The notes under the pieces are model-generated. The model had not been told where the DNA came from. It did not search any database and worked only from the letters and a program-made list of their open reading frames with translations. The translations under genes and the position numbers were made by a program. From Nitrospinota bacterium (GTDB lineage: Bacteria; Nitrospinota; Nitrospinia; JACRGO01), in NCBI GenBank assembly GCA_016212295.1, contig JACRGO010000206.1, forward strand, positions 1 to 35,138: a stretch of 35,138 nt of DNA, written 5' to 3'. This document shows, one piece after another, positions 5,271 to 26,913 of this stretch. Each line of letters opens with the position of its first letter. Position 1 is the stretch's first letter.

Positions 5271-5539
5271 GGCGTGGAGGCGGGAAAAGAGGAGAGGGCG
5301 AGGGTAAACTAAGCCTAAATTGGGCGATTTTCTTTCGCCCCCTTCAGGGCCTAATGGATCTTGCCACGAAACTGAATTGGCATGACGCAGCAGGCATGCT
5401 TCTCGGCAAGCTGGCTGCCCCCGATGGTTCGTAGCCTTTGCGGTTAGTTTGAAACACCACCGTTAGTGGGATCGGTGGCAGACCTTGCTTTGTAATTGTT
5501 ATTTGCCGATGATGTAGTTCAGCGATGAAGGAAATTTTC

Positions 5540-5821
5540 ATGTTCGACCGGGTGCTGAATGAAATGAGGGCTAAAGTTCGAGAACGGAAATATGTGATGA
5601 CGATTCACGGGGAAGAAGAAATGAACAACGATTGCTTTTCAATTTACGATGTTGAAAGCGGCATACTTACCGGGAAAATAGTGGAACGCCAGAAAGACAA
5701 GGCAACTTCAGAGTGGAAATACCGAATAACCGGACACGCAATCGATGGCAATGAAGTTGAGGTTATTGCCAAATTGAGCACAACGGGCAAATTGGTTATA
5801 ATCACGGTGTATGCGCCATAA
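5540..5821 (+). CDS. DUF4258 domain protein (toxin-like partner)
   Basis: KVRERKYVMTIHGEEEMNNDCFSIYDVESGILTGKIVERQKDK...YRITG; RBS-like gaaggaa before ATG 5540. Confidence 0.7.
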   Translation: MFDRVLNEMRAKVRERKYVMTIHGEEEMNNDCFSIYDVESGILTGKIVERQKDKATSEWKYRITGHAIDGNEVEVIAKLSTTGKLVIITVYAP

Positions 5822-5824
5822 TTT

Positions 5825-5862
5825 ATATTATTACGTTCAGAAATTTCTGAACGTAATAATAT
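5825..5862. repeat. Perfect 38-bp palindrome ATATTATTACGTTCAGAAATTTCTGAACGTAATAATAT
   Basis: Exact self-complementarity; shares its arms with 26763-26913. Confidence 0.9.
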
Positions 5863-5932
5863 CATCGAACGTTTGAATACATCGAAATTTATTTTGATTG
5901 CGGCCATGCCGCGCTATGAGAGGAAAAAATAT

Positions 5933-6166
5933 ATGCGATGTGATATTTGCGGAAAAGATGGTGCGCGAAAACACAAGGTTGCAAGGACGTATGGCAAAGG
6001 GGAAGAAATACTGGTTATAGAAAACATACCTGCCGTAACCTGTTCGCATTGTGGAGAAAGTTATTTGGAGGCCGAAACGCTTCACGAAATCGAGCGCATA
6101 AAACTGCACAAAAAGAGTTTTGCGGTAAAACGCACTATCCCTGTGGCCGATTTTGTAACAATTTGA
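5933..6166 (+). CDS. YgiT-type zinc finger protein (MqsA-like antitoxin N-terminal type)
   Basis: CDICGKDGA...VTCSHCGESYLEAET: two CxxC knuckles; follows the DUF4258 gene; RBS-like agagg. Confidence 0.75.
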   Translation: MRCDICGKDGARKHKVARTYGKGEEILVIENIPAVTCSHCGESYLEAETLHEIERIKLHKKSFAVKRTIPVADFVTI

Positions 6167-6241: not shown

Positions 6242-7639
6242 ATGAAAAAAAGGATATTGTTTTTCCTGTTATTGCTTTCGCCGTTTTTCACGCTGGCGCT
6301 ACCGCGCGAAGCTGCCGCCGCCAAGGGGACGCTCGCTGTTGTCACGCAGGATAGCGGCAAGAAGCAGATCGACGCCCCTATCTATGTGGACGGGGTCCTG
6401 AAAGGAACCGGCAAGGTGACCCTTTCGCTTGCTCCAAAGACTTATCTGGTGAAATTCGGAGAAATGACCGGGTATGCCATTGTGTCTCCCAGGAGCGGAA
6501 AGAAAAGCGTCCAGGTAAAGTCCGGGAAGAAGACATCGCTCAAGGCGACCTACAAGAAGTCTTCGTCAACCGGCGCGTCCTCATTCACAGCCACAAAAAT
6601 CGCGGCTGGATGGGCCCATACAATAGCCCTGAGGAGCGGCGGCGCTGTATGGGCATGGGGAGATAACAGCTATGGCCAGCTTGCGGATGGGACAAATACA
6701 AATAGAAAGACCCCTGTCCAGGTGAGCGGGATTACAAGTGTTTCCGCTATAGAGAGCGGGGTTTATCATACAATAGCCCTGAGGAGCGGCGGCGCTGTAT
6801 GGACATGGGGAGATAACAGCTATGGCCAACTCGGTGATGGGACTAATACAAGCCGCAATATACCTGTCCAGGTGAACGGGCTTGCGAATGTCACGGCTAT
6901 CGCGGGAGGAGATTATCATACAATAGCCCTGAGGAATGACGGCACTGCATGGGCATGGGGAAATAATTTATCCGGCCAGCTAGGTGATGGGACTAGTACA
7001 AACAGCAATACCCCTGTCCAGGTGAGCGGACTTACAAATGTTACGGCTATCGCGGGCGGAGACTTTCATACAATAGCCCTGAGAAATGACGGCACTGTAT
7101 GGGCATGGGGAAATAATAGCTATGGCCAGCTAGGTGATGGGACTAATGTAAGCAGCGCCACCCCTGTCCAGGTGAGCGGGCTTACAAATGTTTCAGCTAT
7201 AGAGTGTGGAGTTTTTCATACAATAGCCCTGAAGAATGACGGCACTGTATGGGTATGGGGAGCTAATGACCATGGCCAGATAGGAAACGGGACAAATACA
7301 AGCAGCAATATACCTGTTCAGGTAAGCGGGCTCATGAATGCTACCGCTATCGCGGGTAGAGGATATTATCATACAGCAGCCCTGAAAAATGACGGCACTG
7401 CATGGGCATGGGGCTATAATGCCCACGGACAGTTAGGAGATGGAACGACTACGGATAGAAATACCCCTGTTCAGGTAAGCGGGCTTACAAATGTTACCGC
7501 TATCGCGTGTGGAACATACCATGCAATAGCCCTGAAGAAAGACGGCACTGCATGGGCATGGGGATATAATGGCTATGGCCAGTTGGGAAATGGGACAATC
7601 ACAAACAGCAATGTTCCTGTTCAGGTGAATGGACGGTGA
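6242..7639 (+). CDS. Secreted PEGA-like domain + RCC1/BNR-type repeat protein
   Basis: Signal peptide; PIYVDGVLKGTGKVTLSLAPKTYLVKFG PEGA-like module; about seven ALRNDGTVWAWGNNSYGQLGDGT repeats. Confidence 0.85.
   Translation: MKKRILFFLLLLSPFFTLALPREAAAAKGTLAVVTQDSGKKQIDAPIYVDGVLKGTGKVTLSLAPKTYLVKFGEMTGYAIVSPRSGKKSVQVKSGKKTSLKATYKKSSSTGASSFTATKIAAGWAHTIALRSGGAVWAWGDNSYGQLADGTNTNRKTPVQVSGITSVSAIESGVYHTIALRSGGAVWTWGDNSYGQLGDGTNTSRNIPVQVNGLANVTAIAGGDYHTIALRNDGTAWAWGNNLSGQLGDGTSTNSNTPVQVSGLTNVTAIAGGDFHTIALRNDGTVWAWGNNSYGQLGDGTNVSSATPVQVSGLTNVSAIECGVFHTIALKNDGTVWVWGANDHGQIGNGTNTSSNIPVQVSGLMNATAIAGRGYYHTAALKNDGTAWAWGYNAHGQLGDGTTTDRNTPVQVSGLTNVTAIACGTYHAIALKKDGTAWAWGYNGYGQLGNGTITNSNVPVQVNGR
6590..7635 (+). 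repeat. Near-identical ~150-bp tandem repeats encoding RCC1 units
   Basis: CATACAATAGCCCTGA...GGCATGGGGA...CTATGGCCAGCT...GTCCAGGTGAGCGGGCTTAC recurs about every 150 bp. Confidence 0.85.
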
Positions 7640-26762: not shown

Positions 26763-26913
26763 ATATTATTACGTTCAGAAATTTGCGTTTTCCGCTTTAA
26801 ATAAAATCAGCGTTGAATGCAAAAAGAAATTTATTTTGGTTGCGGCCATGTCGCGCTCCAGGAAGCGGTTTAAAATTTGCGCGGAAAACGCAAATTTCTG
26901 AACGTAATAATAT
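26763..26913. mobile_element. 151-bp MITE-like element with perfect 33-bp terminal inverted repeats
   Basis: 26763-26795 and 26881-26913 are exact reverse complements (ATATTATTACGTTCAGAAATTTGCGTTTTCCGC). Confidence 0.85.

Follow-up and report, generated by a model that had tools for sequence, protein, structure and literature searches.

A stretch of Nitrospinota DNA carries two inverted-repeat features, a 151-bp element and a short palindrome beside a toxin-antitoxin locus, and raises the question of whether the two are copies of one mobile element and, if so, what its ends are, where it inserts and what moves it. The window, that is, the whole 35,138-nt stretch analysed, is contig C163 of a 237-contig draft genome (3.74 Mb, 90.5% complete). 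The element at 26763-26913 (151 bp; ATATTATTACGTTCAGAAATTTGCGTTTTCCGC ... GCGGAAAACGCAAATTTCTGAACGTAATAATAT) has perfect 33-bp inverted arms and a DNA fold with z = -8.5; the feature at 5825-5862 is a perfect 38-nt palindrome that has 22-nt outer arms identical to those of the 26763 element and is followed by a shared block at 5884-5915. The earlier note on this DNA gave the 22-nt outer arms, the 33-bp repeats and the shared block correctly, coordinates included; its account of how they are related is revised below.

A dispersed family, not a toxin-antitoxin module

Counted at up to 3 mismatches with reversed patterns as controls, the 22-nt arm has 189 sites in the 3.74-Mb genome and the block has 145, with 0 for either control, and about 40 relatives of the 151-bp unit are close to full length. 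The arm and block counts are far above chance. This genome-wide search, which the earlier note had proposed as a check, reveals many dispersed copies and places both loci in one repeat family with definable ends. The family statistics given below refer to 1.84 Mb of stretches, the window included, that were picked around listed arm and block matches and within which (fetched stretches plus window) arm and block were mapped. Outside this genome the arm is scarce: the exact 21-nt arm has 0 matches in a collection of 84,980 genomes (own genome left out), the arm was not found at up to 1 mismatch in the 76 other genomes of the class, and a genus-mate genome holds one diverged copy. No Rfam family matches within the window. 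The element, gene-less, short and present at well over 100 sites, is a variant of the known small mobile repeats of bacteria.

The neighbours of the copies include uvrA and ruvB (which we take to be these genes from their translated sequence rather than from a database match), a tRNA and many other genes. In the window, copy B lies between a DUF4258 gene and a YgiT/MqsA-type gene, both of them genuine. Because copies adjoin such unrelated genes as those named first, the toxin-antitoxin link is incidental, and no association of the family with toxin-antitoxin pairs is apparent to us; the earlier suggestions that the element had captured a toxin-antitoxin leader, or goes with DUF4258/YgiT genes, are not borne out. 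A stricter form of the idea, in which the block is conserved YgiT-type coding or leader sequence captured with the locus, draws on the position of the block directly upstream of the zinc-finger gene; it is refuted by the distribution of the block, with its 145 sites genome-wide and copies flanking unrelated genes, and keeps next to no probability. Neither of the findings that the earlier note named as fatal to its proposal, zero further copies or a block that is YgiT coding sequence, was encountered. Elsewhere in the window, an RCC1-repeat protein gene (PF00415) at 6242-7639 contains, and is surrounded by, strong DNA repeats that are 80-86% identical over 370-830 bp.

Table 1. Window features of the two copies and their immediate neighbours (LE, left end; a slash marks a junction with the element).
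Feature	Position	Strand	Remarks
Copy A	26763..26913	-	long form lacking spacer and outer block; in minus-strand reading, from left end 26913 to inner inverted arm 26763
Copy A, true left-end (LE) arm, 33 nt	26881..26913	-	flank in LE orientation ...aaacctt/ATATTATT, T at -1
Copy A, inner block	26826..26857	+	read as the nested inverted copy's right-end hairpin region
Copy A, inner inverted arm	26763..26795	+	outward spacer (21 nt) and outer block of intact copies missing here
Copy B	5825..5915	+	complete short form of 91 nt, followed by ATG; consists of arm palindrome, spacer and outer block, with the interior apparently deleted
Copy B, fused arms	5825..5862	+	38-nt perfect palindrome
Copy B, spacer CATCGAACGTTTGAATACATC	5863..5883	+	conserved in the family
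Copy B, outer block	5884..5915	+	right-end hairpin GCGGC-CAT-GCCGC; ends in GCGCT
Copy B, flanking ATG (target triplet)	5916..5918	+	does not serve here as start codon for the zinc-finger gene
DUF4258 gene (PF14076)	5525..5821	+	neighbour, outside the element
YgiT/MqsA-type zinc-finger gene (TIGR03831)	5933..6166	+	neighbour, outside the element; likely start codon 5933

Ends, length classes and probable nesting

Comparison of copies defines the real unit as ATATTATTACGTTCAG...GCGCT, usually followed by ATG, with a fixed left end, ATATTATTACGTTCAGAAATTT, and a fixed right end (RE), the hairpin TTTTGGTTGCGGC-NNN-GCCGCGCT, after which comes the conserved ATG. Most full copies carry, 21-22 nt outside one arm, a second block that is the reverse complement of the inner block. 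Starting from the left-end arm, the intact long form consists of arm (LE), linker, inverted block, linker, inverted arm, 21-nt spacer and block; it measures about 208-211 nt counting the ATG and ends ...GCGCT, then ATG. Two-ended copies, defined as having both ends within 260 nt, number 60; they range from 39 to 211 nt in many length classes, and LE and RE are the same throughout; the shorter classes look like internal deletions, often at shared short words such as AAATTT or CCGCGC. Since most full copies have the second block outside one arm, the block at 5884 can be recognised as the normal outer block. Copy B reads as an internal deletion of the family element, its block being the ordinary right end rather than displaced interior. 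The 26763 copy, by the same comparison, reads as an end-trimmed member of the family whose right end is missing; a recognisable outer block is missing in three other long copies as well. The earlier picture of modules rearranged between copies gives way to one in which the outer block is the standard right end and the inner block the end of a nested inverted copy.

The LE ATATTATTACG and the RE ..GCCGCGCT have no inverted-repeat relation to each other, and the 33-bp arms are the LE plus an internal inverted copy of it. This bears on the view of the element as a classic MITE of an IS630/Tc1-type DD(E/D) transposon, comparable to Correia and RUP. On that view, which takes up the terminal inverted repeats and the possible TA duplication of the earlier note, the element would end in its 33-bp inverted repeats and duplicate TA on insertion. 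The perfection of the inverted arms speaks for such a MITE; however, the arms do not form both ends, as spacer and outer block extend past one arm in most full copies, and LE and RE are not inverted repeats. The long form is most readily understood as a single element that contains a second copy of itself in inverted orientation. Of the inner blocks scored, half (9/18) have GCGCT followed by ATG, which agrees with nested insertion before an ATG.

The two halves of a copy resemble each other more than shuffling predicts: the match of inner to outer block within a copy is 742 vs 651 +/- 11 for shuffled pairs, the corresponding arm match is 773 vs 737 +/- 6, and several single copies, for example L096, L101 and L121, have private variants on both sides. 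The within-copy advantage of the blocks is smaller when measured against the three closest relatives (p = 0.02), so shared descent accounts for part of the match. Template switching and selection for pairing are both possible explanations of the within-copy matching.

Three further observations concern the left end. At L140:3557-3613, a 57-nt palindrome consists of two left-end arms with no spacer and no block. Some left-end copies (L083:13595, L130:14381, L147:14067 and L157:16341) bear an extra hairpin like CTGCCTGTGCGTCGCACGCGGACAGGCG, and the genus-mate copy, in L062, has a hairpin similar to it. All left ends, as well as window positions 26763-26774, contain TATTATTAC, a motif that seems to agree with the nonanucleotide TANTATTAC of origins of the rolling-circle (HUH Rep) type, possibly by chance.

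Insertion immediately before ATG

When the right flank is scored without requiring ATG, this triplet follows 92 of the 121 outer or solo blocks (76%), and the conservation of its letters is 93% for A, 90% for T and 83% for G. The left flank is T-rich: of 120 good copies, 96 have T at -1, compared with 110 that have A at 0 (p = 0.015), and 18 of 22 long copies have T at -1, giving T/A at the left junction. Most copies have TA at both junctions. Empty sites allow the junctions to be read directly. A paralogous site lies inside another repeat, filled in L122 (GTGTGTTTTT/element/ATGAAATATTCG) vs empty in L166 (GTGTGTTTTTATGAAATATTCG). An orthologous site between ruvA and ruvB is filled here (GTGTGATG/element/ATGGAAAAC) vs empty in the genus-mate (GTATAACC/ATGGAAGAT), from which it follows that the flanking ATG is the start codon of ruvB and was there beforehand. 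The uvrA site (CCTTAT/element/ATGCAATTAAACGAA vs genus-mate GGAACAT/ATGCAGCTC) looks the same, with a pre-existing ATG. At these few empty sites insertion is precise: the left flank is T-rich, and the ATG on the right was already in place.

By itself, a T/ATG site fits either insertion with no duplication or a duplicated TA, in which case the element begins TATT and ends GCGC. No duplication is favoured because T(-1) is less conserved than A(0), because the ruvB copy has G at -1 and because a conserved TG follows the right TA. Insertion seems, therefore, to proceed without target duplication, and the TA duplication that the earlier note had entertained is disfavoured: the empty sites point to insertion immediately 5' of an existing ATG, and a plain TA target leaves unexplained the 90% and 83% conservation of the T and G that follow the right-end A. 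For the DD(E/D) MITE, the T at -1 and A at 0 of most copies, the TA after GCGC in most copies and the one degraded DDE_3 fragment in the genome count in favour; the weaker conservation of T(-1) than of A(0) (p = 0.015), the 83-90% conserved TG after the right TA and the surroundings of the DDE_3 fragment, which contain no arm or hairpin match, count against. Together with the asymmetry of the ends, these points leave that reading unlikely.

In 14 of 52 usable complete copies (about a quarter), those at uvrA and ruvB among them, the flanking ATG opens an ORF of at least 150 codons, compared with 9.3% of TATG sites that have non-coding sequence before them (p = 2e-4); the gene calls behind both figures are crude, being longest ORFs. 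The excess at start codons may represent targeting, or may represent survival of insertions in gene leaders. A rival reading takes the copies for retained host regulatory elements, such as mRNA leader hairpins or terminators, which selection rather than insertion preference would place before start codons. The start-codon excess, the strong hairpins and the pairing kept within copies are consistent with that reading; yet many copies are truncated or located elsewhere, the arm is absent at up to 1 mismatch from the 76 other genomes of the class, with one diverged copy in the genus-mate, Rfam is silent on the window and no common theme is seen among the neighbouring genes. We consider a host regulatory origin very unlikely.

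Candidate enzyme, shared hairpin and known systems

Four transposase families were looked for: Y1, TnpB, IS110 Transposase_20 and DDE_3. TnpB and IS110 (PF02371) are absent from the genome, DDE_3 is represented by the degraded fragment, and Y1 by two genes, both of which score nearest to REP-associated tyrosine transposases (RAYTs) and not to IS200. The full element flanks neither RAYT-like gene. One of them (C179, L163:6862-8010) is followed, 10-13 nt past the stop codon, by an arm remnant, which is suggestive only. Beyond that remnant lies a separate long inverted repeat, AGCGGGGTATCCACTTA...TAAGTGGATACCCCGCT. The other (C211, L176:14240-15400; NF047646, 97.9 bits) is embedded in arrays of TTGCAATCCGTAACG-type hairpin repeats and, with these repeats of its own, looks like a self-contained REP system. 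A search for an autonomous copy, spanning left end to right-end block within 4 kb, gave a list of candidate spacings, among which no repeated gene-bearing unit was recognised.

Our preferred reading, to which we assign a probability of roughly one half, is that both window features belong to one high-copy, non-autonomous mobile repeat moved by an HUH/Y1-like enzyme that recognises a hairpin, with the long form arising by inverted self-insertion. The element would move as single-stranded DNA through an HUH/Y1-type transposase, as REP and IS200-type elements do. When TnpA-REP proteins cleave single-stranded DNA, they do so alongside a hairpin (PMC8266576). For RAYT-like genes, long flanking inverted repeats in place of tagged REPs are on record (PMC3733652). 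The transposase would recognise the right-end hairpin and cut beside it, at the predicted positions CAT^AGCGC on the bottom strand and AATAT^A at the other end; one copy inserting, inverted, into another would yield the long form; and template switching or selection for pairing would keep the two blocks and two arms of a copy more alike than those of random copies. The HUH/Y1 assignment is our inference; the reading as a whole draws on several lines: copy numbers with zero controls, identical ends across length classes, the ATG flank and empty sites, ends that are not mutual inverted repeats, inner GCGCT-ATG junctions, block and arm matching within copies, the presence of two RAYT-like Y1 genes in a genome where TnpB and IS110 are absent, the arm remnant after one of them, and a hairpin common to several unrelated repeat bodies and many phyla. 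Against the reading stand the failure to find an autonomous copy, RAYT-like genes that lack a full flanking element, a hairpin with no GTAG/CGTC REP tag, the T/A at the left junction of most long copies, the weaker block match against closest relatives, and the lack of any orientation bias relative to local GC skew, which lagging-strand insertion would predict, although this is a weak test in a draft genome. The element might instead move by some other mechanism that makes no duplication, such as one of the IS91/Helitron-like Y2 kind or one that relied on a lost transposase of another type. Such a mechanism would fit the lack of a demonstrable duplication and the asymmetric ends with one terminal hairpin; nothing positive points to it, TnpB and IS110 are absent, and we regard it as quite unlikely.

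The right-end hairpin extends beyond the family. Its context is TTTTGGTT before and GCTATG after, and at up to 1 mismatch it has 108 sites in this genome vs 0-2 in each other genome of the class. Exact matches occur at 41 places elsewhere, in genomes of many phyla (Kiritimatiellae, Lentisphaeria, Verrucomicrobia, Planctomycetota, Acidobacteria, Sumerlaeota, Hydrogenedentota, anammox bacteria, Magnetococcales and others); with two queries, no RAYT homologue was detected in these 41 loci at E < 1e-3. In this genome the hairpin GCGGC-NNN-GCCGCGCYATG also terminates several dispersed repeat bodies unrelated to the arm family. Those bodies include GTAATTT-rich, CTGTGGTT, AACTTTAG and TTCGTGG families (for example L095, L087, L135 and L152), and mosaics of the hairpin with other repeat bodies occur in genomes of other phyla too. 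A bolder proposal, which we put forward as doubtful, casts the cross-phylum hairpin (GGTTGCGGC-NNN-GCCGCGCY, then ATG) as the end recognised by a duplication-free transposition system that is new to science. Such a system would aim at ATG triplets, those of start codons among them, and would move several repeat bodies that are otherwise unrelated; in this lineage it would drive an element that inserts into itself inverted, its halves being kept matched by concerted evolution.

Small gene-less repeats shape regulation and genome plasticity, yet few of them have a known mobiliser and target rule. In the present family, sequence alone reveals the ends, the length classes and a target rule (insertion just before ATG), and the shared hairpin offers a handle for an enzyme search across uncultivated phyla. 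If start codons are truly favoured, each such jump would replace the ribosome-binding region of a gene, an unusual form of expression rewiring. The element is ordinary in kind; its asymmetric ends, ATG-flanking insertion, nesting and cross-phylum hairpin are unusual.

Among known systems, the Correia/NEMIS and RUP MITEs are about 100-155 bp long, with inverted repeats, internally deleted short forms and TA beside the ends. The present element is like them in size, inverted-repeat length, short internally deleted forms and TA beside the ends, and unlike them in that its inverted repeats are not its two ends and its target lies just before ATG. PATEs, which derive from IS200/IS605, have hairpin ends, no target duplication and a fixed short target beside one end. 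The likeness extends to hairpin ends, to the favoured lack of duplication and to a fixed short flank (ATG; CAT on the bottom strand), but this genome lacks TnpB and IS200-type TnpA, and the end hairpins here are candidate substrates only. REP/REPIN sequences with RAYT (TnpA-REP) are likewise short, gene-less, high-copy hairpin repeats that form inverted doublets, and this genome has RAYT-like genes; in contrast, our element has no GTAG or CGTC tag, is longer (39-211 nt), is asymmetric in that its two ends differ, has a conserved flanking ATG and does not flank the RAYT-like genes in full. A further likeness is to the TIR repeats of TIRYT genes (TIRtrons; PMC3733652), long inverted repeats that flank RAYT-like genes, occur as dispersed families too and have no REP tags; in our element, by contrast, such repeats lie within a nested unit, and neither RAYT-like gene has them on both sides. 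BOX elements of Streptococcus pneumoniae, which are reported to have TIRs and to cause target duplications (PMC3049150), are alike in being modular, with constant end modules and a variable interior, and in nested insertions among repeats. Constant end modules around a variable interior are what the 60 two-ended copies display in their many length classes; unlike in BOX, the two ends are dissimilar to each other and no duplication is shown.
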